Assembly: GCA_029244935.1 (NCBI GenBank)
Contig: JAQWQF010000013.1
Location: forward strand, 1-39,881
Length of the DNA: 39,881 nucleotides
Direction of reading: 5' to 3'
Source: Methylophilaceae bacterium
GTDB lineage: Bacteria > Pseudomonadota > Gammaproteobacteria > Burkholderiales > Methylophilaceae
The notes under the pieces: generated by a model
Database searches by the model: none
What the model was told of the DNA's origin: nothing
What the model saw: only the letters and a program-made list of their open reading frames with translations
Made by a program: the position numbers and the translations under genes
Shown: piece by piece, positions 2,498-34,761 of the stretch
How the letters are laid out: every line of letters begins with the position of its first letter
Numbering within the stretch: the stretch's first letter is position 1

Positions 2498-3472
2498 TCA
2501 TTTTTTCTGGATGGTGGGCCAGCAAACTGGGTTGAGTTCGCTAGCTGCAATTTCTCCGGGATCAACACCAGGAATGAATTTTTGCCAGTCGCCTGATACC
2601 ATTGTTGGTTCTTTAACCACGCGTGCCCCATCTGCGAAATATGTATTAGCCAGAACTATACGGCTCTGAGAAGTTCTATTATTACCTGCTGTATGAAAAC
2701 TCAAGTTATGATGAAAACTGGCTTCCCCAATCTCAAACGGTTTGTTATCAATAGTCACGTTGTTTGCCTTAAAAACCTCAGTGACTTTTTTGTCGTAGCT
2801 TGTGTCATTTTTATTAAAATTGATATTTTTGACGAGATTATAAACGTTTAACGGCTTTGCAAATGATAAAGGACCCATAGCTTTTGGCACTGGTTGTGCT
2901 GGCATCCATGCAGTCACAACATCATTTGTCTCTAAAGGGAAATGATGATCATCGTAATGCCATGGCGTGCGACCGCAACCGGGCTCTTTTGAGAGTGCAT
3001 TGTCATGATAGAGACGAACACTTTTTACACTTAGTAGGTCCGCTGAAATCTTTGCAATGCGTGGGCTTAGTACATATTGTCTGATAACAGGACTCTCTAT
3101 CCACATCATTTCGAGGCTTAGGAAGCGTTTGCTTCTGTTGTTTGCTGGAAATGTCTTATTAAGAAGGCTTATGAGCTCTTTACGCAATCGAACTACAGCC
3201 CCAGGAGACAACACATTTGGTAGTCTGATGAATCCATCCCTTCGAAAGTTGCAGTGATGCTCTTCTGTTAATTTATATGGGGTGGAAAGTTCATCATCTA
3301 GTTCACTATCTGAAGGCATGTCAAAATGCTGTATAGGCTCTATATCGACAAAATTAGTTGCATTATTACCTTTATTATCGGCAAGCGTTACATACCAATC
3401 CCACCAAGCTTGATTATCCTGTTCCCAGTATTGGTTTAAGTCTTCGCCAAGTGCATTTGCTCCTACAAGCAA
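2498..3472 (-). CDS. PhyH-family Fe(II)/2-oxoglutarate dioxygenase
   Basis: A protein of about 324 residues with the phytanoyl-CoA dioxygenase fold. The iron-binding triad is visible as H172 and D174 in WHYDDHHF and H260 in LSFHTAG, with R271 in SRIVLANTYF as the likely 2-oxoglutarate-binding arginine. An N-terminal extension rich in Trp (YWEQDNQAWWDWYVTLADN) precedes the core. Such enzymes hydroxylate or oxidise small organic substrates. No in-frame ATG fits the N-terminus; the first usable start is a TTG at 3472, so the start is uncertain. The gene is divergent from the EgtD-like gene, and its codons look richer in G and C than those of most neighbours, which may indicate acquisition by transfer. 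The substrate is unknown; an amino-acid betaine is one possibility given the neighbour. Confidence 0.8.
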   Translation of the reverse strand: MLVGANALGEDLNQYWEQDNQAWWDWYVTLADNKGNNATNFVDIEPIQHFDMPSDSELDDELSTPYKLTEEHHCNFRRDGFIRLPNVLSPGAVVRLRKELISLLNKTFPANNRSKRFLSLEMMWIESPVIRQYVLSPRIAKISADLLSVKSVRLYHDNALSKEPGCGRTPWHYDDHHFPLETNDVVTAWMPAQPVPKAMGPLSFAKPLNVYNLVKNINFNKNDTSYDKKVTEVFKANNVTIDNKPFEIGEASFHHNLSFHTAGNNRTSQSRIVLANTYFADGARVVKEPTMVSGDWQKFIPGVDPGEIAASELNPVCWPTIQKK

Positions 3473-3703
3473 ATCATTAGAGAGTATTTTTTTGTTAATA
3501 ACTTAGTTTCCTAAAATAAAATATTTTGACTGCTAAAACCTAGACGTCACCATCAGACACTTATAAATAACAATTAGTTGCATCTGTAACTTGTGTGTAT
3601 TATGGACCGTTATGTTAATATAACCAGTCTACTAAATTCCCTAAGTAATGAGACGGTCGAAAATAATATTAATCAAAGAGTAATCTTTTTGGAATGTAAT
3701 TTT

Positions 3704-4687
3704 ATGGATGATGAAAATATTAAGGATCTTGACTATTTTTTTGATATCCAACCTAAGAAACAAATAGAATTTTATGAGTCTGTTTTAGAAGGGTTGTCGT
3801 TACCACAGAAAACAATATCCCCTAAATTTCTTTATGATGAGCGTGGCTCCAAGATATTTGATAAAATTTGCGACACACCAGAATACTACTTAACTCGAAC
3901 CGAAATAGCGTTACTTAATGACATTCAAGAAGAGCTTTATTCTCTTGTTGAGCCAGGTTCAGCTGTTGTTGAATATGGTTGTGGATCGAGTATTAAGATT
4001 AAAGCACTTCTATCTGCTTTGCCAGAACCATCACATTATATTGCAATAGATATTTCAAAATCTCATTTGATTTCAACCGCGAAAGAAATAGCTTCGAATT
4101 ATAAAAATATTTCTGTTGCAGCAATTTGTGCAGATTTTATGGAGCCGATTGACTGGCCAGAAAGAGCCTCTTTTGAATCTCTAAAGCGGCTAGCTTTTTT
4201 CCCTGGCTCCACTATCGGCAATCTAAACCCTAATGAAGCCAGTCAGTTTTTAAAATATGTCCGACATTTAGTTGGTAATGAAGGTACATTCATAATTGGT
4301 GTAGATATGAAGAAAGATGATGAGGTTTTTAATCGAGCTTATAATGATGCAGAGGGTCATACTGCTGACTTTAATTTAAACCTTCTACATAGAATGAAAA
4401 AAGAACTAGATGCTGATATAAATATCTCCGAATTTTCACATAAAGCCTTTTATAACGAAAAACTTGGGAGAGTTGAAATGCACCTTATTAGTAATCTTAA
4501 GCAGAATATTAAAATTAATAATTTAGAATTCTCCTTTACAGAAGGGGAAAGTATACATACCGAATGCTCTTATAAATATTCTGTAAGAGAATTTTCTGAG
4601 TTGGCTAAAAAATCAGGATTTAGCATGTTAAAAAATTGGACTGACAAAAGAAATTTTTTTAGTATTTATTTAATGAAAGCTATCTAA
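3704..4687 (+). CDS. egtD: EgtD-like L-histidine N-alpha-methyltransferase (hercynine-forming type)
   Basis: A SAM-dependent methyltransferase of the EgtD family, which trimethylates the alpha-amino group of histidine to hercynine. Family features in order: FLYDERGS near residue 43, PEYYLTRTE, the SAM motif EYGCGSS near 90, ADFMEP, STIGNLNP with the Asn equivalent to EgtD N166, AYNDAEGHTADFN, RVEMHL carrying the Met equivalent to M252, and TECSYKY carrying the Glu and Ser equivalent to E282 and S284. As I recall the literature, M252 and E282 set histidine specificity in the mycobacterial enzyme, so histidine is the likely substrate. Longer starts exist (ATG 3602, TTG 3593), but their extra residues look unlike the family; ATG 3704 gives 327 residues, near the usual 320. 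No EgtB sulfoxide synthase is in the window. Confidence 0.82.
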   Translation: MDDENIKDLDYFFDIQPKKQIEFYESVLEGLSLPQKTISPKFLYDERGSKIFDKICDTPEYYLTRTEIALLNDIQEELYSLVEPGSAVVEYGCGSSIKIKALLSALPEPSHYIAIDISKSHLISTAKEIASNYKNISVAAICADFMEPIDWPERASFESLKRLAFFPGSTIGNLNPNEASQFLKYVRHLVGNEGTFIIGVDMKKDDEVFNRAYNDAEGHTADFNLNLLHRMKKELDADINISEFSHKAFYNEKLGRVEMHLISNLKQNIKINNLEFSFTEGESIHTECSYKYSVREFSELAKKSGFSMLKNWTDKRNFFSIYLMKAI

Positions 4688-4725
4688 AATCAGATTCATG
4701 CACCAAACTATTTATATGTGATGCC

Positions 4726-5622
4726 ATGAAGATTAAATCAGCTTGGATACGACAGATAGAGAGTGGCCAACAACCAAGTAGCTCTGCTTTACGAGATCAT
4801 CTCGGTGCTGTTCATGACAATAATGCGGGTTTTACTGAAGATTTTGCGTGGAAGTGTCGTGATGCGAATGGTAAGAATAGTTATGAGTTGCTTGCCGATA
4901 TTATTGATCAAAAATATCATTCTCAGGTTCTCGATCTTGGTTGTGGGAGTGGAGTTCTTTTAGACCTTTGTAATCAACGTTTTGGAAATGAATTGGTACT
5001 TTCTGGCGTTGATATGAATGGTTCCGAACTGCAGCTTGCACGCAAGCGTCTCGCCCATACCGATACCAAACTTTATCAGGGAGCGGCGCAAAACCTTGAT
5101 TTTTTTTCTGATTCATCTTTTGATTTGATCTTCTGTCATTGGGCATTAACTTTGATGGACCCAGTGACTGAAGTCCTTGCCACAACCAATCGTCTACTCA
5201 AAGAAAAAGGTATTTTTGCAGCTATAATTGATGGGGATCCCAAAACTGCCGACGGCTATCGTGAAGTCCACGACATTATTTACGAACATGTGCAATGCAA
5301 GTATCCGGATTATGGAGTTTTTGAACTTGGTGACCCACGTGTGAGAACAGCCGCGGGACTTAAAAAACTTGTGGCTGAAACCTTTGAAGATTTTGATATA
5401 AACATAACACCAATAACTGTAAGTTATAATGGAGCTCCTAGCCTCTTAGCACGTGAGGCCGCTGGTTTTTTCTATGCTTCATTCGTTCTTTCTCCTAATG
5501 ACTTTAGCCAGATGCTTGCTAATCTTGAAAAATATTTTTTTACGAACCTACATGATGGAACCAGCTGTTTCACCATGCCAATAAATCTTTTAATCGTTAG
5601 AGGAAAAGGAAGTAATAACTAG
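4726..5622 (+). CDS. Class I SAM-dependent methyltransferase
   Basis: A 298-residue methyltransferase. The SAM-binding motif is VLDLGCGSGVLLDL near residue 70, followed by an acidic end of strand 2 (SGVDMNGSEL) and the strand-4 motif FDLIFCHWALTLMDP. The C-terminal half, after residue 170, is likely substrate-binding and I do not recognise it. It lies 38 bases after the EgtD-like gene on the same strand, so the two are probably co-transcribed. Base composition is higher in G and C than in the surrounding genes (for example the stretch coding for RLAHTDTKLYQGAAQ), as in the PhyH gene. That suggests these two arrived together or from a similar source. The substrate is unknown; small molecules fit better than nucleic acid because no RNA- or DNA-binding domain is visible. 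Confidence 0.8.
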   Translation: MKIKSAWIRQIESGQQPSSSALRDHLGAVHDNNAGFTEDFAWKCRDANGKNSYELLADIIDQKYHSQVLDLGCGSGVLLDLCNQRFGNELVLSGVDMNGSELQLARKRLAHTDTKLYQGAAQNLDFFSDSSFDLIFCHWALTLMDPVTEVLATTNRLLKEKGIFAAIIDGDPKTADGYREVHDIIYEHVQCKYPDYGVFELGDPRVRTAAGLKKLVAETFEDFDINITPITVSYNGAPSLLAREAAGFFYASFVLSPNDFSQMLANLEKYFFTNLHDGTSCFTMPINLLIVRGKGSNN

Positions 5623-8850: not shown

Positions 8851-11667
8851 ATGAAACTTAAACAGATAAAACTTGCAGGCTTTAAAACATTCGTTGACCC
8901 AACAAAGGTCATTCTAGATGGTCAGCTTGCAGGAATTGTAGGTCCAAATGGTTGTGGAAAATCGAACATTATGGAGTCGGTTAAGTGGGTATTAGGTTCA
9001 TCATCTGCTAAAGAGCTTCGTGGCGATTCCATGGATGCTGTTATATTTAGTGGGACTGACACTCGCCAGGCATTATCACGAGCAAGTGTTGAGCTACTAT
9101 TTGATAACAGACTTGGTCAGGCTCCAGCCGAGTGGTCTTCATATGAAGAGATATCAGTAAAACGCGTTATCGAAAAAGAAAAAGGATCAACATACCTAAT
9201 AAATAACACCGCAGTTAGAAGAAAAGATGTTGCAGATTTATTTCTTGGGACAGGATTAGGAAGTAAAGGATATGCAATTATTGGTCAAAATACTATTTCC
9301 CAGGTTGTTGAGGCCAAACCAGAGGAGCTTAAGAGTTTTCTTGAGGAAGCAGCAGGTGTTAGTAAATACAAGGAAAGACGTAAAGAAACTGAATATAGAC
9401 TAAGGGATACAAAAACAAACCTTTCAAGAGTTCAGGACCTATTAAGAGAGATAAATCAACAAATTTCTAAACTTGAATCACAAGCTCAAACAGCAAAAAA
9501 GCATAATGATCTAAAAGATGACCTCTCGCTAACAAATGCAAAAATATGGGTGAATAAAAAACAATCAGCTAATGATCAATGGTTAAAAATAAAAGAAGAG
9601 ATTGAACATAAAACATTGGCTCTCGAGAAACAAAGTAGTTTATTAACATCAATAGAGAAAAGCGTTGAAGATACAAGGCAGGAATTTAATCATGCAACTG
9701 ATTTAATTAATAAAGCACAAACAGGTTTTTATGAAAAAAACTCCTTAGTAAGTGATGCTGAAAATAAAATAACTAATCTTAAAGATAAAGTTGAGCAACA
9801 AACGAATATTCAGACAATAAATCAGGATAAAATTAAGAAAATTAATGAAATAGAAATGGAGCTTAAAGAAGAAATATTTAAAAATGAAAATCTACTTAAT
9901 GACGCAAATGAGAAGGACAGCTCATTCCGCGAGCTTCTAAGTATATCAAGAACTAAGTATGAGTCAGCAAAAGAAAAAAACGAGATCGCAGTAGATAAAT
10001 ATCAAGATGCTAGTAATCAACTACAATCATCAACTGAAAAATTAAATATTTCACTAACGGCGGTAGAGTTTATTGAAAACAATATTTCAGAGCTTAACCA
10101 TAGAATTAGCGGCCTAGGTGTTGAATTTAAAAGTCTAATTTCTGATAATGACAAAAATGAAAAACCTGAGGACCTTTCTTTAATTGAAGCTAAGATTAAA
10201 GATACCGAAGTTCAACTTGAATCAAAGAATTTAAAAAGCTTAGAAATTATTAACAATATTGATGACCTTAGAAATCAGTGCAACGTCAAGAAAAGTGAGA
10301 TCGATGATCGCCAGGCAAGGATAAGTTCACTCAAAGAAGTTATTGTACAAGAGGTTGATCAAAAGAAAATTGATGAATGGTTAAATGAAGTAGGTTACAA
10401 AAAACATACTAATTTAGTCAAAAGTATTGACATAAAAGATGGATGGGAAAAAGCACTTGGCATAGTATTAGGCTCAAAAGTTGAGGCTTATAAAACTGAT
10501 GATATCAATATTAATGATTTAAAAAGACCCCCTCATACCATTACAATTGTTCACGACTCCATCACCGAAAAATTAAATGATAATAAAGATCTTATATCAG
10601 CTCTTACAGTTATTGATTCATATGATGCAACGCTAAAAATTGCCATTACTGAATGGCTCTCAAATATCTATATTTCTACTCAGGAAGAGGTTAATAAAAA
10701 TAGAAAATATCTTAAATCTGGTGAAGCTATCATTACAAAGTCTGGTGATATATATGGAAGGTCCTATCAAATTTTAAACCAACCATCAAATAATCAAGAC
10801 AATAGGCTTCTTAGAATAAAGCAATTAGAAATTTATGAGAAAGAAATACCTGGCCTAACAAGCGATTATCAGAAACTTTCCGATACCTTAAAAAATTACG
10901 AGAATGCTAATCAAGATCTGAGACTAGAAATTATTGAAATAACAGAAATCCTGAAAAAAAGTAATGATAAAAAAAATCACCTTTCATTTGAATATAATAA
11001 GTTATTAAATGTTATCGAAGTAAATAACAATCGTAAAAGCTCAATTAATAATGAGGTTACTCAGTTAGAAGAGAATTTAAATGCGTTTTCTAAAGATCGT
11101 GATAATCATAAAAATAATATAGCTAGTCTTAAGAATGCTTTAGATAAGTTAAATGAGTTAAATGATGCAGCCCTAAATAACAAAGTACGTAGTGAGGAAA
11201 TATTTGTCGAATTAAGGGATCAACTTGTAATTAATGAGAAGTCATTACAAGAGGTTGAATTTAATATCAAGCTAACAAATAATAAACTTGTTGAGATTCG
11301 GGAGCGATTAGTTCGTCTTTCAGCAGAACGAGAAGGTTTATTGGAACAAGCTAATGAAGCAAATATTGATAGCATCCATGAGGAGTTAATTCAGATTGAA
11401 TTACAACTTAAAGAAAATATTAAGGGTAAGGAAGAGTCTGAATTGTCACTGGTTAAGGCAAGAGATAATTTAGCACAAAAAGAAACTAAGCTTAAGGAAT
11501 TAGAAAGTAATAGACTAGAAAATCAACATTTGGTTAATCCATTAAATGAAGCAATACAGCAATCAAAGTTAGATGAACGTGAAATTAAATTGAAATTTGA
11601 TCAATGTTGTGAGGAAATTGGTAAATGTAAATATGAAGAATCTGAAATAATGTCTAAGCTTGATTAA
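8851..11667 (+). CDS. smc: SMC chromosome condensation protein, N-terminal part ended by an in-frame TAA
   Basis: SMC dimers organise and segregate the chromosome with ScpA and ScpB. This ORF holds the N-terminal ATPase half-head (MKLKQIKLAGFKTF, Walker A GPNGCGKSN at 32-40), long coiled coils, and the hinge region (about residues 500-600, including GWEKALGIVLGSKVEAYK). It stops at a TAA (11665-11667) after 938 residues, but the same frame continues without interruption to 12345 and encodes the missing C-terminal head. The full frame would give about 1164 codons, the normal SMC length. As written, this product lacks the C-loop and Walker B and could not form a working ATPase. Possible explanations are a real nonsense mutation, a sequencing or assembly error, or read-through. 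Confidence 0.9.
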   Translation: MKLKQIKLAGFKTFVDPTKVILDGQLAGIVGPNGCGKSNIMESVKWVLGSSSAKELRGDSMDAVIFSGTDTRQALSRASVELLFDNRLGQAPAEWSSYEEISVKRVIEKEKGSTYLINNTAVRRKDVADLFLGTGLGSKGYAIIGQNTISQVVEAKPEELKSFLEEAAGVSKYKERRKETEYRLRDTKTNLSRVQDLLREINQQISKLESQAQTAKKHNDLKDDLSLTNAKIWVNKKQSANDQWLKIKEEIEHKTLALEKQSSLLTSIEKSVEDTRQEFNHATDLINKAQTGFYEKNSLVSDAENKITNLKDKVEQQTNIQTINQDKIKKINEIEMELKEEIFKNENLLNDANEKDSSFRELLSISRTKYESAKEKNEIAVDKYQDASNQLQSSTEKLNISLTAVEFIENNISELNHRISGLGVEFKSLISDNDKNEKPEDLSLIEAKIKDTEVQLESKNLKSLEIINNIDDLRNQCNVKKSEIDDRQARISSLKEVIVQEVDQKKIDEWLNEVGYKKHTNLVKSIDIKDGWEKALGIVLGSKVEAYKTDDININDLKRPPHTITIVHDSITEKLNDNKDLISALTVIDSYDATLKIAITEWLSNIYISTQEEVNKNRKYLKSGEAIITKSGDIYGRSYQILNQPSNNQDNRLLRIKQLEIYEKEIPGLTSDYQKLSDTLKNYENANQDLRLEIIEITEILKKSNDKKNHLSFEYNKLLNVIEVNNNRKSSINNEVTQLEENLNAFSKDRDNHKNNIASLKNALDKLNELNDAALNNKVRSEEIFVELRDQLVINEKSLQEVEFNIKLTNNKLVEIRERLVRLSAEREGLLEQANEANIDSIHEELIQIELQLKENIKGKEESELSLVKARDNLAQKETKLKELESNRLENQHLVNPLNEAIQQSKLDEREIKLKFDQCCEEIGKCKYEESEIMSKLD

Positions 11668-12352: not shown

Positions 12353-13417
12353 ATGAGTGAAGTACAAATCGCATTATTGGTACTTGGTTTTATTGTGATC
12401 ATTATTATGATCCTGCATAACTGGGCCCAATTAAAAAAAATTAAAAAAAGAAAACAAAAAATTTCGGCATCAGAAGCACCAACTCTTAATGATGATAATG
12501 ATCCGTTATTTCAATCAAGTGAATTTAAAATTAATGACTTAGACAGATCAAAAGTAGATGAACTAGACTCTTCTGGGTCTCAGAAAATGATAGAGTCAAA
12601 TCTTCCAGATGGAGTTAATAGGGACATAGAGATGGTTGCTTCAATAGTCACGAAAAGTGTTCAGAATGGTAAATCTTCGATCTTTCTAGAGTCTCTTGAT
12701 AATTTACCAGGTGTAAGTGTTTACGTTAGAAATGATAATGAAATATGGTCAACTGGTGAGGCGCTTGATGAAAGCATACGCTATAACCAGGTTTTAATAG
12801 TACAGCAACTCGCATCTCGAAAATGGACCATCACTAATGATTCTGCAGCCTTATTGATCTCTTATATAGAAAAAATTAATAGTGCTATTGATGGCAATTT
12901 ATTTTGGCTAACAAATTCTAATATTTTAGAAGAAGCAAAACTGATGGATGAATTTAGGGGAGATGTAGACAAGGCTCTAATTTTAAAGGTAACTCCAAAA
13001 TCTGACTCCTCTTTTCATACAGGCGCACTTGAAGATTTTTTTAATAAATCAGATATTAAGGTCAATAATAAATTGATACATGAGTTTATTGATCTAGAGA
13101 ATAAGAATGTTATTTGTCAACTATTAAGTCTTTCAGGAAAGCCATTACAAATTAATCAAGAGTCTTTTATCCAGGGAATAGTTTTAAAAATGGATGTGCC
13201 AAATACCCCTAATATAACCCACTCATTTAATAAAATGATTAGCCTTATTAAAGAGTCAACAAAAAAACTAAATGGTGTATTAGTTGATACTAGCAATAAA
13301 AAAATTGATGATGATTATATAAGTAGAGTTTATGTCCACCTAAAGAAGGTTGAACAAAAGATGCTTTCTAAAAAAATTAACCCAGGAAGCGACAATGCCT
13401 TAAAGATCTTTTCATAA
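12353..13417 (+). CDS. zipA: ZipA-like cell division protein
   Basis: A 354-residue protein with an N-terminal membrane anchor (residues 5-23, IALLVLGFIVIIIMILHNW), a basic stop-transfer stretch (KKIKKRKQK), an acidic low-complexity linker to about residue 100, and a C-terminal globular domain. The architecture and its place between smc and ligA, as in other Proteobacteria, match ZipA, which tethers FtsZ polymers to the membrane at the division site. Sequence similarity in the FtsZ-binding domain is weak by eye, so the call leans on context. The stop codon directly abuts the ligA start, indicating one transcript and coupled translation. Confidence 0.75.
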   Translation: MSEVQIALLVLGFIVIIIMILHNWAQLKKIKKRKQKISASEAPTLNDDNDPLFQSSEFKINDLDRSKVDELDSSGSQKMIESNLPDGVNRDIEMVASIVTKSVQNGKSSIFLESLDNLPGVSVYVRNDNEIWSTGEALDESIRYNQVLIVQQLASRKWTITNDSAALLISYIEKINSAIDGNLFWLTNSNILEEAKLMDEFRGDVDKALILKVTPKSDSSFHTGALEDFFNKSDIKVNNKLIHEFIDLENKNVICQLLSLSGKPLQINQESFIQGIVLKMDVPNTPNITHSFNKMISLIKESTKKLNGVLVDTSNKKIDDDYISRVYVHLKKVEQKMLSKKINPGSDNALKIFS

Positions 13418-15430
<2,013 letters not shown>

Positions 15431-15431
15431 A

Positions 15432-16304
15432 ATGAAAAGAGAATTAACATTAATATTTGTGATTAAGATAATGTTTATAAACAATTTATATGCATACAAT
15501 AATAAAAATAAGTGTGAAGACTATCTATCGAAAGGTAAGCCAGTAGAAGCAATTAGTGCCGCCAAGATAATAAGTGATAAATATGATTCTAGCTTTTGTA
15601 AGGCAAAAGCAGAATATTATCAAAATAATTTTGCTGCAGCGATTAAAGATCTGGAGATAAGCATTAAACATGCTGACCTGCAAGCAGATCAGATGTATGC
15701 CATATTGTATAAGGGAATTGCTGAAAGAGATAACAATCAAATAAAACAATCAATTAAATCCCTAAAACATGGGCTTGAGGTAGCGAAACTGGGTAACACT
15801 AAGTATATGGCCATGGAACAAAAATTCTTATACCAAATAGGCCTGAGTTATTCAGCCTTAAAAGATTACTTCAATGCTACAGATTTCTTATCTAAGTCAT
15901 TAATAATAGCGGCAAACGATGATGAGCGTGCTGATGCATACAATTCACTTGCAATTGCGCATGCAGCTAATAAAAAATATGGGAAAGCTGTAGAATTTGG
16001 CCTTAAATCAGCTAATACTTTGCAAAGGTCAGGACAACGAAATAGATATGCAGAAGCAATATATAGCTTATCAGGATATCATTTTCTTGATGGTAATAAC
16101 TCGAAAGCAATATCACTTTTGGATGGATTAGAGAGCTTTGCTGAGAAGAATGGTAGTAAATACTATCAGGCTAAATCACTTTTTGAAAAGGCATTACTAT
16201 ATAAAAATCTTAAAAGGCAGAAGGACTCAGATTCATCATACCAAGCAGCTATTCGTATTTCTGAGCAAATTGGAGCCGTTGACTTAATATCGGCTTATCA
16301 ATAA
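15432..16304 (+). CDS. Secreted TPR-repeat protein
   Basis: A 290-residue protein with a hydrophobic N-terminus suggesting a signal peptide (MKRELTLIFVIKIMFINNLYAY) followed by tetratricopeptide-like helical repeats, for example FAAAIKDLEISIKHA, YFNATDFLSKSLIIA, ERADAYNSLAIAHAANKKYGKAVEFG and YQAKSLFEKALLYKNL. TPR proteins act as protein-protein scaffolds; a periplasmic place is inferred. It overlaps the end of ligA by spacing (ATG two bases after the stop), so it belongs to the smc-zipA-ligA transcript and is the last gene before the dif site. The partner is unknown. Confidence 0.75.
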   Translation: MKRELTLIFVIKIMFINNLYAYNNKNKCEDYLSKGKPVEAISAAKIISDKYDSSFCKAKAEYYQNNFAAAIKDLEISIKHADLQADQMYAILYKGIAERDNNQIKQSIKSLKHGLEVAKLGNTKYMAMEQKFLYQIGLSYSALKDYFNATDFLSKSLIIAANDDERADAYNSLAIAHAANKKYGKAVEFGLKSANTLQRSGQRNRYAEAIYSLSGYHFLDGNNSKAISLLDGLESFAEKNGSKYYQAKSLFEKALLYKNLKRQKDSDSSYQAAIRISEQIGAVDLISAYQ

Positions 16305-16312
16305 TATATATA

Positions 16313-16340
16313 ATTTTACATAATATACATTATACGAAGT
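16313..16340 (-). other. dif: XerCD chromosome dimer resolution site (dif)
   Basis: A 28-base site in the gap between two converging genes. Read on the minus strand it is a XerC arm ACTTCGTATAA, then the central hexamer TGTATA, then a XerD arm TTATGTAAAAT. Against the E. coli dif site it differs at 5 of 28 positions, four of them in the XerC arm, with the centre identical and the XerD arm differing at one base. XerC and XerD recombine here to resolve chromosome dimers at division. Gene direction switches around it as expected at a replication terminus. XerC arms vary between lineages, so the match is strong. Confidence 0.85.
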
Positions 16341-16395
16341 ATAATATACTAAATCTAGGTATACCCTCTGCTTATATGTAAATTAACTATGGTAA

Positions 16396-16761
16396 CTACA
16401 CAACAAATTGGGCTAAGCCATTCTTAAAAGAAAAATCAACGTCATGATTCTCAGTGATAGTAATAAAAACATTTTCAGGTTTTATTTGAACTCTATCACC
16501 TAGATATTCAACTACCTTGCTATAAAAGGCTTGCTTTGATTTATTTGAACGTCCAGAGCGCATTACTAAGTGCATCATTATTCTATCATCCACTCTACCC
16601 TGATACTGTAAACAATCATTAGACAACTGATTTATTACTTGATATCTGTCATCATCTGGAAAATTCATTGTTTCTATAACAGCTTCATTAACACTGTCAG
16701 AAACCTTTTTTATATAGTCCTTACCTTTTCCATCTAAGATATTTATTGTTACAAACGGCAT
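16396..16761 (-). CDS. Tautomerase-superfamily protein
   Basis: A 121-residue protein of the 4-oxalocrotonate tautomerase/MIF superfamily, longer single-chain type. Catalytic Pro2 follows the initiator Met (MPFVTINILDGK), and the conserved stretch MNFPDDDRYQVINQL plus a basic RSGRSNKSKQAFY region match the group usually named tautomerase family protein. Such enzymes interconvert keto and enol acids or dehalogenate small acids; the substrate is not known. A strong TTAGGAGC ribosome-binding site precedes the ATG. It converges on the TPR gene, with the dif site between. Confidence 0.8.
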   Translation of the reverse strand: MPFVTINILDGKGKDYIKKVSDSVNEAVIETMNFPDDDRYQVINQLSNDCLQYQGRVDDRIMMHLVMRSGRSNKSKQAFYSKVVEYLGDRVQIKPENVFITITENHDVDFSFKNGLAQFVV

Positions 16762-16794
16762 AATTGCTCCTAAGAAATTTAAGTAAATTATTCA

Positions 16795-17862
16795 ATGAAT
16801 AGATACTATAATAAAATAACTATGAAAATTTTACTATTAAGCATAATTTTTATCTTTTCTTCTCCAAATTTATTATTTGGTGAAGCTTCAAATTATAGAA
16901 AAGTAGCTATTATGTATAGCGATAAATTTTTGTTACATAACACAGGTAAGAATCACCCAGAACGACCAGAAAGGTTATCAAAAGTTGTTAACAATCTTAA
17001 AAATAACAAATCACTCTCCCCTTACTTGGTTTGGCCTTTGGTTAGAGAGGCTACTGAGCAAGATATTAAACTGGTGCATACTGAAAATTATATTGATTTA
17101 GTTAGAAAAGAAGTGAATTTACTTCAAAAAAATGATATTTCATACTTAAGTACTGGGGATACTATAATTTCAAAAGAATCCAATAAGGTTGCAAGAATAG
17201 CCGTTGGAGCTGGTCTTAGCGGTGCAGATGCAATTATGGAAGGTAAGGTATCTTCCGCATTTGTATTAAATAGGCCTCCAGGACATCATGCTACGGCCTC
17301 AAAAGGCATGGGTTTTTGTATTTATAATAATATAGCTATTGTCGCTCGTTATTTACAAAATAAATATAATATTGAGCGTATTCTAATAGTAGATTTTGAT
17401 GTTCACCATGGGAATGGTACTCAAGATATTTTTTATAATGACGACTCTATATTCTATTTTGATATTCACCAACACCCACTTTATCCTCAAAGTGGACGAC
17501 CAAATGAAATAGGTATCGGAAAAGGCAAAGGTTTTACTTTAAATGTAGATCTTCCTAAAGGCTCTGGAAATACTAAGTTGATTAATGCTTTTAAAAATAA
17601 ATTAACACCAGCGATGGAAAAATTTCAACCTGAATTTATTTTAGTATCAGCCGGTTTTGATTCTCATCAAGGGGATTTACTGGGACAATTAAATTTTACA
17701 GATGTAGGTTATGAAAATATTGCTATCATTTTAAGTAATATTGCTAACAAATATGCATCTGGAAGAAAGCTATATATGTTGGAAGGTGGTTATGTTGCTG
17801 AAAATATTTCAAAATCAGCGGAAAAAATTATAGGTATTTTAACCAAAGATATGGGGGATTAG
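16795..17862 (+). CDS. Histone-deacetylase-family amidohydrolase with signal peptide
   Basis: A zinc-dependent deacetylase-fold enzyme. Active-site elements are RPPGHHA (H164/H165), DFDVHHGNGT (zinc ligands D202 and H204), SAGFDSH (third zinc ligand) and LEGGY (catalytic-type Tyr). Bacterial members hydrolyse acetylpolyamines, acetoin-related or other acyl-amide substrates. Unusually, the N-terminus is a good signal peptide, MKILLLSIIFIFSSPNLLFG, from a second ATG at 16822, so the enzyme is probably exported; either ATG may be the start and neither has a clear ribosome-binding site. Its last ten bases, including the stop codon, lie inside tRNA-Lys. It is divergent from the tautomerase gene across 33 bases. 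Confidence 0.85.
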   Translation: MNRYYNKITMKILLLSIIFIFSSPNLLFGEASNYRKVAIMYSDKFLLHNTGKNHPERPERLSKVVNNLKNNKSLSPYLVWPLVREATEQDIKLVHTENYIDLVRKEVNLLQKNDISYLSTGDTIISKESNKVARIAVGAGLSGADAIMEGKVSSAFVLNRPPGHHATASKGMGFCIYNNIAIVARYLQNKYNIERILIVDFDVHHGNGTQDIFYNDDSIFYFDIHQHPLYPQSGRPNEIGIGKGKGFTLNVDLPKGSGNTKLINAFKNKLTPAMEKFQPEFILVSAGFDSHQGDLLGQLNFTDVGYENIAIILSNIANKYASGRKLYMLEGGYVAENISKSAEKIIGILTKDMGD

Positions 17863-17928
17863 CTCAGTTGGTAGAGCAGTTGACTCTTAATCAATTTGTC
17901 GCGAGTTCGAGCCTCGCATCCCCCACCA
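17853..17928 (+). tRNA. tRNA-Lys (CTT)
   Basis: A complete 76-base cloverleaf with encoded CCA. Acceptor GGGGGAT pairs perfectly with ATCCCCC, D-arm AGCTCAGTTGGTAGAGC, anticodon stem GTTGA with TCAAT around loop CTCTTAA (anticodon CTT), T-arm GCGAGTTCGAGCCTCGC. Its first ten bases are also the end of the upstream deacetylase-family gene, whose TAG stop is bases 8-10 of the tRNA. Confidence 0.97.
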
Positions 17929-17943
17929 ATCATTATAAAGATG

Positions 17944-18168
17944 TTAGCGTTGATACTCTTGGGTATCAACAGGTAGATCACTCTCTTTTACTACAAACTC
18001 CAACCCTGACATAGAACCAACATAGACACCATTCTGATAATTAAATCTAATCTTAACTGTATTTATTGATACCTCTAGTTGAGACTCAGGCCTATAGCTA
18101 AGTATATAGCCTTTAACAGTTTTACCATTATCCGTGCAGCTTACGTTAATTTCATCTAAATTATTCAA
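17944..18168 (-). CDS. fdh4B: Small partner of formate dehydrogenase-like enzyme (Fdh4B-like)
   Basis: A 74-residue soluble protein (MNNLDEINVSCTDNGKTVKG…) with no signal peptide, no membrane segment and a single Cys. It starts within the last codons of the molybdopterin oxidoreductase gene (4-base overlap), so the two are translationally coupled and probably form a complex. Methylotrophs encode a formate dehydrogenase, FDH4, as a large subunit plus a small unknown protein; the arrangement here fits. I name it from context, not from recognising the sequence itself. Confidence 0.55.
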   Translation of the reverse strand: MNNLDEINVSCTDNGKTVKGYILSYRPESQLEVSINTVKIRFNYQNGVYVGSMSGLEFVVKESDLPVDTQEYQR

Positions 18169-29145: not shown

Positions 29146-30585
29146 ATGAACACTGAAATAACTTCAACACATATTAAAAAAATTAGTTTATTTATATTCA
29201 CTATATCTTTATTGTTTCCTTTTTCAGCATGCAGCCTACTTGAATATAAAGAGGCTAAAATTGAAATTATAAGCATCAATGAGGATTTAAGTGATGCAGG
29301 TGTAGATAATAAAGATTTTTTAGAATACTTAATTAAAAAAGGCTATACCAAGCAAGAGCTCCCCATACAGAATTGGAAATTAAGTGAACTACTTTTTACT
29401 CAAGAATTTTACAATAGAGAAATTGCACTAGCAAAATCTGAGTGGGAAATTATTAAAAGCAATGAAGCTCTCACAAAATTAAAACCAACATCATCTATTG
29501 GCATTAATATTGGAAAAAGTGATAGTAATGAAGAAATATCAAAAAATATTTATGGCGGTGGAATTTCATTTATATTTGAATCAGCAAACAAGAAAATAAT
29601 TAGACATGAGATTGCTTTTAATAAAACTCAGTCAGCGTATCTAGCTTATCAAATTAGTGTTTTTGAAAAAAAAATAAAGCTCCTAGAAGATCTTATAAGC
29701 TATATAGAGAATCAAGATTTAATTATTGTTCAAAAGAAGAAGGTTAAGCTTAATCAATCAATATTGCATATGGCAAGAAAAAGATTTAATTTAGGGTTAG
29801 CTTCTCAAGTTGATATTGATAGACATGCTCTAGCTATAAGTGGTGCATACCAGTTACTAATTAGCCTACAAATAAAGCAGGAAAACCTAAAGCGAAATTT
29901 AGCCACGCATGTAGGAATGAAATTCCAGAAATTTAATCAAATACCAATAAATGTAGATCATATTAAGGGTACACTTGAAAAATCCTTAGAATCATTTCAC
30001 GACATAGAAAAAATTAATGAGATTAAGTATACGGCAACATTAAATAGCCTATCTCTGAGGAAATTATTAGCTGATTATGCTATTTCTGAATCTGAGCTTA
30101 AATATGAAATTGCAAAACAATATCCTGATTACATTTTTAGTCCTGCTTATACTTATGATTTAGGAAACTATATATGGAGCTTAGGGATTGATTCTGTTAT
30201 AACTTCATCAAAAAGAAATGAGATCCTAATTAATAGAGCAAAAAAAATTCGAGGGGCACAAGCAAGTAAAGTTTATAGCTATCAGTTAGATTTAATTAAC
30301 AAGGCTGAAAATCTTGTGCCTAAGTTCGAGGGTTTGGTTAGAGAGCTTAACCACTTTAAGCCACTGATTAAAGCAAGAAAAAGATTAGAAGCGCAGTTAC
30401 GCAGACAACTTGATAATGGTTTAATAGATCGCCTAGACTTTGAGCTTGAATTAGTTACTTTATTTGAGATTGACAAAAAATATCATAAAGCACTATATAA
30501 TTTAATTAATTCTGGTTTAGATGCAGAGCGCATAATGCAAAAACCTATTATTACGAATAAGGTCTATTTAAACGATGAAAAATAA
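29146..30585 (+). CDS. TolC-family outer membrane efflux protein, possible lipoprotein
   Basis: A 479-residue outer membrane channel subunit of the TolC/CusC type. The N-terminus is a signal sequence ending FPFSACSLLEY; the Cys is a plausible lipid-attachment site although F at -3 is atypical. The rest is long charged helices with two repeated halves, as in the family (for example ILHMARKRFNLGLASQVDIDRHAL and LRRQLDNGLIDRLDFELEL, the usual position for the conserved G-x-x-x-x-x-D segment). It starts a three-gene operon and overlaps the adaptor gene by 11 bases. The right to call it efflux rests mainly on its neighbours. Confidence 0.8.
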   Translation: MNTEITSTHIKKISLFIFTISLLFPFSACSLLEYKEAKIEIISINEDLSDAGVDNKDFLEYLIKKGYTKQELPIQNWKLSELLFTQEFYNREIALAKSEWEIIKSNEALTKLKPTSSIGINIGKSDSNEEISKNIYGGGISFIFESANKKIIRHEIAFNKTQSAYLAYQISVFEKKIKLLEDLISYIENQDLIIVQKKKVKLNQSILHMARKRFNLGLASQVDIDRHALAISGAYQLLISLQIKQENLKRNLATHVGMKFQKFNQIPINVDHIKGTLEKSLESFHDIEKINEIKYTATLNSLSLRKLLADYAISESELKYEIAKQYPDYIFSPAYTYDLGNYIWSLGIDSVITSSKRNEILINRAKKIRGAQASKVYSYQLDLINKAENLVPKFEGLVRELNHFKPLIKARKRLEAQLRRQLDNGLIDRLDFELELVTLFEIDKKYHKALYNLINSGLDAERIMQKPIITNKVYLNDEK

Positions 30586-31639
30586 GTCGCTCTTTATTAT
30601 TGTCATACAATCTGTAACTATAATTTGCCTTATATGGGTAGTTATAATGATAGATGGAGATAAAGTATTATCAGATAATATCGACGATGACGAAGATATT
30701 TTCGTTGATTATACTGCTGTAGAAAATGGATTGTTATTAATTAAGCTACCAAAGAATGTTGAAAAAAATAGTAATATTAAATACGAAGAGTTAACAAAAA
30801 CATCATTTATAGATAGTTCGATTTTTTATGGGGAGTCGATTAATATTAAGCCATTAATCAATCTTAATACTAAGCTCTCAATTATCCAGAATAAGTTAGA
30901 CCAACTTCTAGTTAACTTAGAAGCAGAGGTTGATCACCTTAGTAAATTGGTTATGTTAAATAGAGATAACAAAAATATATCTGATTCTGTTGTCGGTCAA
31001 AAGGAAATAGACATCAAAAGTATTGAAAGCAATATTGATTCCTTAAAAAAAGACAAAGCCAACATAATGAACACTATACAAAATGAATGGGGCAGTAAAT
31101 TTTATAAAATATTTACTGTTAAAAAGAATAATAAGCTAAAAAATATTATTTCGGGAAAAGCCAAGTTAATAAAAATTACTTTTTCGCCGAATCAAATAAA
31201 TCAAGAAGTACCAAATATAATAAATATATCTTCAATAGCTCAAACCAATTCAAACTATGAAGCATTGTACTTTTCTGATAGCCCTGAAGTGGATGTCAAC
31301 CGATCTGGAAAAAGTTTTTATTACTTAGTTCATAACAGTAAAATTTTAAATGGAGAGAAATTTACAGGGCATAGACTTGCCTCTCCTAAAGACCAACGCT
31401 TTCTTTTTATACCAAAACAATCAGTCATTTGGAGTAATGGAATACCCTGGGCATACGTACATATTGAAGACACGGAAAAATATATAAAGAAATCATTAAG
31501 TGAGCTAAAAGAAACTAATAATGGTTGGATTATTAAAGAAGGAAATTTGAAGGCTGGTGATCTAATTGTAACTGAGGGGGCGCAGTTACTCCTCTCTGAA
31601 GAATTTAAATATCAAATAAAAAACGAAAACGAGGATTGA
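30575..31639 (+). CDS. RND efflux periplasmic adaptor (membrane fusion protein)
   Basis: A 354-residue protein with one N-terminal membrane or signal segment (LFIIVIQSVTIICLIWVVIM), a beta stretch, a helical hairpin of about 80 residues (LNTKLSIIQNKLDQLLVNLEAEVDHLSKL … DIKSIESNIDSLKKDK) and C-terminal beta domains ending GWIIKEGNLKAGDLIVTEGAQLLLSEEFKYQI, which is the typical end of HlyD/CusB-like adaptors. The sequence is divergent, so the call depends on lying between the outer membrane and pump genes. It bridges the pump and channel across the periplasm. Confidence 0.78.
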   Translation: MKNKSLFIIVIQSVTIICLIWVVIMIDGDKVLSDNIDDDEDIFVDYTAVENGLLLIKLPKNVEKNSNIKYEELTKTSFIDSSIFYGESINIKPLINLNTKLSIIQNKLDQLLVNLEAEVDHLSKLVMLNRDNKNISDSVVGQKEIDIKSIESNIDSLKKDKANIMNTIQNEWGSKFYKIFTVKKNNKLKNIISGKAKLIKITFSPNQINQEVPNIINISSIAQTNSNYEALYFSDSPEVDVNRSGKSFYYLVHNSKILNGEKFTGHRLASPKDQRFLFIPKQSVIWSNGIPWAYVHIEDTEKYIKKSLSELKETNNGWIIKEGNLKAGDLIVTEGAQLLLSEEFKYQIKNENED

Positions 31640-31644
31640 TTTAG

Positions 31645-34600
31645 ATGATGGCGGCATTAATCCGTTTTTCAATTAGATTCCCTGGAGTAGTAATTGGTTT
31701 TGCTCTGCTTATTCTGATGTATGGCACATTTAAAATAAAGCAAAGTCCGTTAAATGTCTTCCCCGAATTTTCTCCTACTCAAGTAATAATTCAAACTGAA
31801 TCTCCAGGGTTTTCTGCAAACCTCGTTGAGACTCTTGTTAGTAAGCCTATCGAAAATGTAATATCAGGAACAATTGGCATAAAGCAAATTAGATCCCAAT
31901 CAATTCCAGGTCTCTCTGTGGTTACGGTTATCTTTGATGATGACTCAGATATTTTAATGAACAGACAGTTAATTTCAGAGAAACTCTCAACCCTATCAAG
32001 TTCACTTCCCAGTTCAATTGTACCAATAATTACCCCTTTAACGTCATCTGCATCAAGTGTCCTTGGTATTGGCATAACGTCTGAAACAAAGGACTTATCT
32101 GAGTTAAGAACGATTGCTGAAACAGTTATTATCCCTCAACTTATGTCAGTCCCTGGGGTTGCGGACGTCAATCGATTTGGTGGCCTAGTTAAGCAATTTC
32201 ATGTTGAAATTGACCCAAAAAAACTCTATCAACATCAAATCACTATTAAACAAATACTAGATGCGATTAAACGCTCATCATCTGTTCAGGGTGGTGGCTT
32301 CATTGAAAACAATAACCAGCGAATCATTATAAATGCTAAAGGCCAGACAAAGACGATTAATGAATTAAGTGACGCACCAGTTATTAATCTTAATAATAAA
32401 ACTTTTCGTATAAAAGATGTAGCTAATGTAAAGAATGGATATGCACCATCTATTAGTGCTGTCTCAATAAATGGAGTACCCGGAGTCTATCTCTCAATTC
32501 AAGGGCAATTAGGCTCAGATACATACAAGCTTACCCAACAACTAGATGATTCCCTAACATCAATTTTACCGATTCTTGATAAGGATAATGTTAAACTATT
32601 TCCAGATCTATTTAAGCCAGCTAATTTTATTGATGCATCAATCGCTGGCTTAAAATTTGACATTATTATTGGCGCAATCCTTGTCATTTCCATTCTATAT
32701 ATTTTCTTATACAACTTAAAAACAGCTTTTATTTCAGCGGTGGCAATCCCACTATCTCTTATGTCGGCAATTTCAGTTATGAACTATTTCAATATGGGAT
32801 TAAATGTAATGGTATTAAGTGGACTTGCAATTGCACTTGGGGAAGTTGTTGACGATGCAATTATAGATGTAGAAAATATTTTTAGGCGTTTACGACAAAA
32901 TAAAAATAAAAAAACCCCTACTCCTATATATAAAGTTGTATTTGATGCATCCATGGAAGTAAGAAAATCTGTAGTCTTTGCTACCATAATTATTGTATTA
33001 GTTTTTATTCCATTACTATCTCTTTCAGGAGTTGCAGGTAAATTATTTGGTCCTTTAGGAATTGCTTATATATCTTCAATTATTGCATCATTATTTGTCG
33101 CATTAACTATTACGCCAGCACTCTGCTATTTGATGCTTGCTAAATCAAAGCTAGAATCAGAAGACTCTCCATTAATTAGAGGTATTAAATATTATTATGA
33201 AATATTTCTCAGGGCAATTGAAAGAAAATCTAGGGTTATTATTTTTACATCCCTACTTTTTATTAGCCTTGGTTTAGCACTTCTTCCCTTTTTCAAAACA
33301 CAATTCATTCCGCCGCTTCACGAGGGGCATTTTATTATGCATATGACTGCACTTCCAGGTACATCTGAAAAAGAATCTATCAGGATTGGTAATTTAGTTT
33401 CTGCAAAAATTAATGATATTGGTGGCGTTAAGTCTGTAGCTCAGTGGGTAGGGAGATCTCCTCTAGGCGCAGATACTTTCGGTACCCACTATAGTGAATT
33501 TGAGATTGAGCTCGAACCTTCTGACGGACCAGAACAAGACAAAATACTTGAAGAAATTAAAGATATTGTAAATGGAAATTCTAATGGTAATAGTCCAAGC
33601 TCTTATGGATTTGTCGGAGTAAATTTTGCAATTAATACATTCTTGACAGAGCGAATAGAGGAGACTATATCTGGATACAATGCTTCAGTTGTAATTAATT
33701 TATTTGGAAAAGATCTTGATGGGCTTGACAGAGACGGGCAAAAAATTTCTAGGCTTCTTAGTAAAATGGAAGGAGCGGAAGATATTATGTTGCAATCTCC
33801 TCCAGGCACACCACAAGCTACAATAAGATTACGAGCAAATAAAATTGCAGAATATGGAATAATGAAATCAGATGTTCTTGAAATTATTAGAACTGCCTAC
33901 GAAGGTTTTCCAGCAGCTATTATTTACGATGGTGTTTTACCAGTAACCGTCAAAGTTACAGTTAATAAATCATACCGAGATGATATTTTAGATATACATA
34001 ATTTACCAATAAGGACTTCTACAAATCAAATTATCATGCTTGGTGAAATTGCAGATATCTCGCAGGAAAGTGGACGTTCAAAAATATTACATCAGGATGG
34101 AAAGCGGGTTCAAACAATAACTGCAAATATTGATGGCAGAGACATTAGTTCGTTTAATAAGGATTTAATTACTAAACTATCTAATTTACGCCTAGGAGAA
34201 GGAAATTACTATGAAATTACTGGAGCAGCAATAGAAAATAGTAAAGCTCGAGAAGAGCTAATCACCTTTTCTATTCTTGCAGGCTTTACAGTATTGCTAA
34301 TGCTATATATTGCATTTGGGTCCCTCAGGAATTTAGCTATTACATTATTTAACCTCCCATTTGCTCTGATTGGTGGTGTAGTTGCTGCAACAATATATGG
34401 AGGCTGGATTTCAATTGGATCGATGGTTGGATTTGTTACATTATTTGGAATAACGCTAAGGAATTCCATAATGCTTTTATCTCATTACCAACACCTAGTA
34501 AGCAATGAAAATTGTGAGTGGAACCTTGAGACATGCGTTCGAGGTGCTAAAGAACGACTACCTTCAATCCTAATGACTGCACTAGTAGCAGGACTTGCAT

Positions 34601-34761
34601 TAATGCCAATTGCTCTGGGTTCAGGTCAACCTGGCAAAGAGATTGAAGGCCCAATGGCAACTATAATTATTGGAGGATTATTTACATCCACAATCTTAAA
34701 TCTTCTAATATTGCCTACCTTGTTGCTGAATTATGGTAATTTTAAAAAACAGATTTTTTAA
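31645..34761 (+). CDS. RND efflux pump, heavy-metal-efflux (CzcA/CusA) type
   Basis: A 1038-residue inner-membrane proton-driven pump with 12 membrane helices and two large periplasmic loops. The fourth helix contains ALGEVVDDAIIDVENIF; paired acidic residues here and the following RLR sequence fit the HME family, which exports metal ions, rather than the drug-pump (AcrB) family. Other landmarks are SIPGLSVVTVIFDDDSD, FLYNLKTAFISAVAIPLSLM, LPGTSEKESIRIG and GVPVTVKV-like VLPVTVKVTV. The metal specificity cannot be read by eye. It ends 10 bases from the converging pterin dehydratase gene. Confidence 0.88.
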   Translation: MMAALIRFSIRFPGVVIGFALLILMYGTFKIKQSPLNVFPEFSPTQVIIQTESPGFSANLVETLVSKPIENVISGTIGIKQIRSQSIPGLSVVTVIFDDDSDILMNRQLISEKLSTLSSSLPSSIVPIITPLTSSASSVLGIGITSETKDLSELRTIAETVIIPQLMSVPGVADVNRFGGLVKQFHVEIDPKKLYQHQITIKQILDAIKRSSSVQGGGFIENNNQRIIINAKGQTKTINELSDAPVINLNNKTFRIKDVANVKNGYAPSISAVSINGVPGVYLSIQGQLGSDTYKLTQQLDDSLTSILPILDKDNVKLFPDLFKPANFIDASIAGLKFDIIIGAILVISILYIFLYNLKTAFISAVAIPLSLMSAISVMNYFNMGLNVMVLSGLAIALGEVVDDAIIDVENIFRRLRQNKNKKTPTPIYKVVFDASMEVRKSVVFATIIIVLVFIPLLSLSGVAGKLFGPLGIAYISSIIASLFVALTITPALCYLMLAKSKLESEDSPLIRGIKYYYEIFLRAIERKSRVIIFTSLLFISLGLALLPFFKTQFIPPLHEGHFIMHMTALPGTSEKESIRIGNLVSAKINDIGGVKSVAQWVGRSPLGADTFGTHYSEFEIELEPSDGPEQDKILEEIKDIVNGNSNGNSPSSYGFVGVNFAINTFLTERIEETISGYNASVVINLFGKDLDGLDRDGQKISRLLSKMEGAEDIMLQSPPGTPQATIRLRANKIAEYGIMKSDVLEIIRTAYEGFPAAIIYDGVLPVTVKVTVNKSYRDDILDIHNLPIRTSTNQIIMLGEIADISQESGRSKILHQDGKRVQTITANIDGRDISSFNKDLITKLSNLRLGEGNYYEITGAAIENSKAREELITFSILAGFTVLLMLYIAFGSLRNLAITLFNLPFALIGGVVAATIYGGWISIGSMVGFVTLFGITLRNSIMLLSHYQHLVSNENCEWNLETCVRGAKERLPSILMTALVAGLALMPIALGSGQPGKEIEGPMATIIIGGLFTSTILNLLILPTLLLNYGNFKKQIF

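Follow-up and report, generated by a model that had tools for sequence, protein, structure and literature searches.

The dif-like site and its chance level

Whether the 28-bp sequence at positions 16313-16340 is the chromosomal dif site, and how closely it marks the replication terminus, is the question raised by this stretch of DNA (the window, 39,881 nucleotides), which is the entire contig C26 of an assembly of 1,249,240 bp in 32 unordered contigs. The site lies in an AT-rich gap of 91 bp between two convergent genes, one for a TPR protein (ending at 16304) and one of the tautomerase family (lower end at 16396). Read directly, the minus strand of 16313-16340 is ACTTCGTATAA / TGTATA / TTATGTAAAAT, and it shares 23 of 28 bases, with an identical centre, with the E. 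coli dif sequence. An earlier sequence-only reading had placed here a 28-base XerC/XerD site with an intact TGTATA and this degree of identity; its coordinates are exact and its figure of 23 of 28 bases is reproduced. The site and its parts are as follows.

16313 to 16340, minus strand: dif site, 28 bp, single copy in the genome, 23 of 28 bases as in E. coli dif, core kept in relatives
16313 to 16323, minus strand: predicted XerD-type half site (TTATGTAAAAT) on the TPR-gene side, assigned by position in the 11+6+11 dif layout (as given in PMC2731167)
16324 to 16329, minus strand: central region TGTATA, putative place of strand exchange, identical to E. coli dif
16330 to 16340, minus strand: predicted XerC-type half site (ACTTCGTATAA), assigned by position in the same layout

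In 30 Markov-1 windows of equal length the best match to E. coli dif reaches 18 to 21 of 28 bases (18 or 19 in 27 of the 30), and the core pattern, allowing up to three mismatches, matches once in the window and not at all in 100 shuffles. The window holds no second site with at least 20 of 28 bases, and the best other matches, the surroundings of the tautomerase gene included, stop at 19 of 28. An Rfam scan of the window returns only five tRNAs, the same as those found by ARAGORN, and no match at the dif site. A short inverted repeat at 16326-16335 / 16339-16348 (10-nt arms, 90%, 3 nt apart) overlaps the XerC arm and may be part of a terminator; no such repeat was seen next to dif at the other 11 loci compared in the genus.

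Copy number and the Xer/FtsK genes

Several copies in the genome had been named as a finding that would speak against a dif site, and a search of the assembly (95.25% complete) with up to three mismatches returns a single copy. Two tyrosine recombinases are detected in the same genome at E <= 0.001, a 295-aa protein that is XerD (376.3 bits against an NCBIfam cut-off of 329.6) and a 296-aa protein that is XerC (341.1 bits against 335.15); judged by eye, the product of the gene directly before xerC presumably resembles DapF. The genome also encodes one FtsK gamma domain, and its DnaA matches comprise a full one on contig C1 and a partial one on C6.

Position of the site relative to the terminus

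Placement of the terminus rests on local GC skew and on relatives, the genome itself being available as unordered contigs. Cumulative GC skew in the window is maximal at 17882, 1.5 kb from dif, and skew in 2-kb steps is positive in all steps up to 16-18 kb and negative in all steps from 17 to 30 kb. The likelihood interval for the skew change-point over the whole window is 15714-18017 and includes dif; a finer interval for positions 1-29000 is 17794-18000 and leaves dif outside by about 1.5 kb. Around dnaA on contig C1 (20001-39934) the skew turns in the opposite sense, from minus to plus. Several of the other stretches sampled from this genome also switch sign, so that skew in a single stretch is by itself no proof of a terminus. 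To the right of dif, between 29 and 35 kb, skew in the window returns to positive or near-zero values, coinciding with three rightward genes.

29146 to 34761, plus strand: three genes, two resembling an RND periplasmic adaptor and a CusA/CzcA efflux permease, with matches below curated cut-offs

Among relatives, within 20-40 kb stretches picked around dif, the skew peak lies at 650469 in G003, with dif at 651538 (about 1.1 kb apart; 20-kb stretch), at 641325 in G016, with dif at 643854 (about 2.5 kb; 39-kb stretch), and at 640092 in G043, with dif at 640139 (47 bp; 40-kb stretch); together with the window, the maxima fall 0.05-2.5 kb from dif in four of four genomes. Of twenty stretches sampled from G016 (399 kb of 1,334 kb), 9 of the 11 ahead of dif have positive skew and 8 of the 9 beyond it negative skew. 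In all ten one-contig relatives examined (1.27-1.36 Mb) the distance from dif to dnaA is 0.484-0.539 of the circle. Seven of these are listed as one contig and in the other three the first contig has approximately the whole listed size; dnaA was located by DnaA matches and tblastn of contig starts, and further relatives with long contigs, such as G019 and G031, stand outside the set. A skew extremum far from the site had also been named as evidence against dif; the extrema found are close by, and dif is opposite dnaA in the relatives examined.

The orientation of genes follows the same trend less exactly. The sequence-only reading had described a flip in gene direction at the site, with 13 of 15 genes rightward on the left and 13 of 19 leftward on the right. 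With ORFs of 100 aa or longer counted and two overlapping antisense ORFs (21202+ and 25664+) dropped, 10 of 12 run rightward to the left of dif and 12 of 18 leftward to its right; the trend thus holds, and the exact numbers vary with the gene calls. Nor is the flip sharp, as a histone-deacetylase-family gene (16795+) just right of dif runs rightward. The same reading had taken dif to fix the whole window as terminus DNA where forks meet, which is borne out for location and not for an exact meeting of forks at dif. As argued by Kono 2011 (PMC3025954), replication need not end at dif itself, and dif is therefore a marker of the terminus region rather than a proven fork meeting point.

Octamers of KOPS type were sought as a further sign of polarity toward dif. 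The octamer GGGNAGGG, and then GGGCAGGG, were candidates for KOPS with strong early polarity (GGGCAGGG at 32 of 33 places in the first three genomes). In seven further relatives 73 of 84 occurrences of GGGCAGGG run in the dnaA-to-dif direction, compared with 22 of 28 for the rearranged control octamer GGGACGGG, no significant excess (Fisher p=0.36). As both octamers track G skew, KOPS are compatible with the data and are not separable from skew.

Conservation of the core in relatives

Allowing up to three mismatches, 109 of 148 relatives carry the dif core (110 of 149 genomes when the window's own is counted), and the reversed pattern, used as a control, has no match in the 149 genomes searched. 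By kinship, the core is present in 22 of 30 genomes of the genus, in 55 of 59 other members of the family and in 32 of 59 further genomes of the order; 8, 4 and 27 genomes, respectively, have no match at this threshold. Seven of the eight genus genomes without a match are assemblies of 59-81% completeness; the eighth, G024, is 91% complete. All 22 matches in the genus have zero mismatches over the 25 fixed bases. The TPR protein encoded beside dif is only 35-52% identical across ten loci compared. A site not conserved despite kept flanking genes had been considered a sign against dif, and the pattern seen is the reverse, with a core free of mismatches in 22 of 30 genus members next to a protein that has diverged to this extent.

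Three relatives, G085, G107 and G035, give two dif matches each. For G085 and G107, insertion of an element was considered and rejected, the two matches stemming from a single locus whose contig ends overlap (127 bp at 100% and 194 bp at 98%, respectively). In G035, a member of the family with a closer dif match elsewhere, the second, weaker dif-like site (G035:C1, L135:7422) has three mismatches and sits on an 11.7-kb contig, about 240 bp short of its end; it is possibly the site of a plasmid or element. Contig ends at dif were inspected in part of the 110 matching genomes, and four contigs break off 10 bp or less from where the XerC arm has its outer edge (G022:C121, L133; G085:C10, L129; G107:C11, L132; and the end of G047:C2, L134). 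All four ends are on the XerC side, and they could reflect alternative XerC-side junctions within the population, of the kind that mobile elements using Xer would leave. For G085 and G107 the break is spanned by an overlapping second contig, and these two cases thus reveal no other junction.

Gene neighbourhood of dif

The genes flanking dif are as follows, and those from smc to the TPR gene run toward the site.

8851 to 11667, plus strand: smc-like gene, 938 aa, upstream of zipA (Pfam SMC_N, 8.7e-30; synteny)
12353 to 13417, plus strand: zipA (Pfam ZipA_C; synteny)
13418 to 15430, plus strand: ligA, NAD-dependent DNA ligase (Pfam; synteny)
15432 to 16304, plus strand: gene for the TPR protein, with 8 nt between its stop codon and dif (Pfam TPR)
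16396 to 16761, minus strand: tautomerase-family gene, neighbour of dif on the XerC side (Pfam)

This arrangement was compared in 13 genus loci, comprising the window's own and those of 12 of the 22 matching genus members. In all 13, ligA is less than 8 kb from dif and is faced by the XerD arm. The TPR stop codon lies -6 to 25 nt from dif in 11 of 12 loci, the window's own included, with a spacing of 3-25 nt in all of these except L028, where the gene overlaps dif by 6 nt; in most of the measured genus loci the stop is thus within a few bases of the XerD arm, and once inside it. The exception among the 12 is L030 (seen more fully in L133), in which about 1 kb with a 291-aa ORF separates the TPR gene from dif, and in the last of the 13, L031/L137, the intervening DNA is about 2.4 kb long and contains two ORFs. 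The TPR side of dif is therefore mostly fixed in the genus, and the XerC side (16341-16794 in the window) varies. The tautomerase gene has no tblastn match beside dif in L021-L031, in L084-L103 or in eight further loci. A histone-deacetylase-family gene stands in its place in seven genus loci (L021, L023, L025, L027, L028, L029 and L103).

Proximity to ligA extends beyond the genus. The family was covered by 18 of its 24 listed genera, mostly with one genome each (g6, g8, g9, g11, g23 and g24 being left out), and in 12 of the 18 no more than 8 kb separate ligA from dif; g22 is among the 12, and its member G085 also has ligA near dif. In the others the distance is about 10 kb (g10, two genomes), 21-23 kb (g17 and g2), 54 kb (g19) and 594 kb (g21), and in g5 ligA is on a separate contig. 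Transcription of ligA runs toward dif in all 12 close genera, and dif presents its XerD arm to ligA in ten and its XerC arm in g12 and g16; among these close genera, no TPR relative was matched near dif in g4, g13 and g15. Among 15 genomes from the order's other families, three have ligA and dif on different contigs; in the 12 measurable ones, with both on one contig, ligA never falls within 50 kb of dif, the distance being at least 57 kb. Inheritance with inversions around the terminus explains the kept ligA-dif neighbourhood best. A role of the TPR protein, or of transcription into dif, in terminus handling or Xer recombination that goes beyond inheritance might be imagined from this gene order, and we consider it improbable.

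In their proteobacterial dif catalogue, Carnoy and Roten 2009 (PMC2731167) report that dif lacks any apparent specific genetic environment. The family of the window differs in that dif stays near ligA and zipA in 12 of the 18 genera examined, and near smc and the TPR gene where these are seen, and the kept neighbourhood is an exception to that published statement, a mildly unusual one, though common descent explains it. Among the papers listed, judged by titles and the beginnings of abstracts, there is no report of dif beside ligA or zipA, or of dif in SUP05-type bacteria, which is weak evidence of absence. In practical terms, dif places and orients the terminus of a fragmented genome, and the order ligA-TPR-dif offers an anchor for scaffolding relatives.

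Interpretation and alternative explanations

The data indicate, with a probability of about 0.96, that 16313-16340 is the ordinary chromosomal dif of a gammaproteobacterium with a reduced genome, used in XerC/XerD dimer resolution near the terminus. The assignment to the gammaproteobacteria is drawn from ZipA, the type of dif and the order of genes; a scan of genome contigs returned a single, distant spirochaete locus. It is very improbable that the sequence is instead a dif-like attachment site belonging to a plasmid or an integrated mobile element (IMEX). Such an origin would suit the contrast between the differing XerC-side neighbours of genus members and the mostly fixed TPR side, as well as the four contigs of relatives that end at the XerC edge of dif. 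It agrees poorly with a single copy in the genome, with the lack of a second site of at least 20 of 28 bases in the window, with core genes (ligA, zipA, smc) as neighbours and with a position opposite dnaA in relatives, and two of the four contig ends are bridged by a second contig of the same genome. Any element inserted at the site would, moreover, be there because the site is dif.

Less probable still is that an AT-rich gap between convergent genes matches dif by chance, for example as a terminator hairpin, for which the composition of the gap and the inverted repeat overlapping the XerC arm could be cited. Shuffled sequences never match (0 of 100) and the best null match is 21 of 28; the repeat does not recur beside dif in the other genus loci; and the mismatch-free genus matches beside a TPR protein of 35-52% identity refute this explanation. 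The reading as chromosomal dif is thus well supported, and it is an expected result of low surprise.

In the XerCD-dif model, FtsK unites two dif sites at the septum and activates XerD through its gamma domain; XerC then finishes the reaction. Applied to the window by analogy with the E. coli system, recombination between sister chromosomes would produce a dimer, and septal FtsK would pump DNA until the two dif copies meet. The FtsK gamma domain would then activate XerD to exchange one pair of strands at TGTATA, and XerC would complete the exchange to give two monomers. The binding of XerC and XerD, the order of strand exchange and the control by FtsK at this dif are likewise inferred from E. 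coli, and what was computed is that the site is present in one copy and conserved, that it lies opposite dnaA in relatives and next to a turn in skew, and that the genome has XerC, XerD and FtsK gamma. The model agrees with PMC5052618 and PMC2680272, among others.

Comparison with known dif systems

The site resembles the E. coli dif/XerCD-FtsK system in its 28-bp 11+6+11 layout, its TGTATA centre, its 23 of 28 shared bases and its terminus position, and the genome encodes XerC, XerD and FtsK gamma as E. coli does. The two differ in the XerC arm, which is ACTTCGTATAA here and GGTGCGCATAA in E. coli, and in the KOPS-like polarity, which in the relatives studied here is inseparable from general G skew. 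Like the sites in PMC2731167, the window dif is intergenic, AT-rich, single-copy and near the skew maximum, the median distance between dif and skew maximum given there being 7277 bp. The same source describes small endosymbiont genomes (0.159-1.1 Mb), with Ruthia magnifica among those named, as being without dif/Xer. In contrast to these, the 1.25-Mb genome of the window retains dif, XerC and XerD, together with the FtsK gamma domain.

One further stretch of the window, away from dif, carries genes of other functions.

2498 to 5622 (region): EgtD-type histidine methyltransferase gene, over the NCBIfam cut-off, followed by a methyltransferase-like gene
2498 to 3472: weakly matching methylphosphonate-hydroxylase-like gene, adjoining the EgtD-type gene
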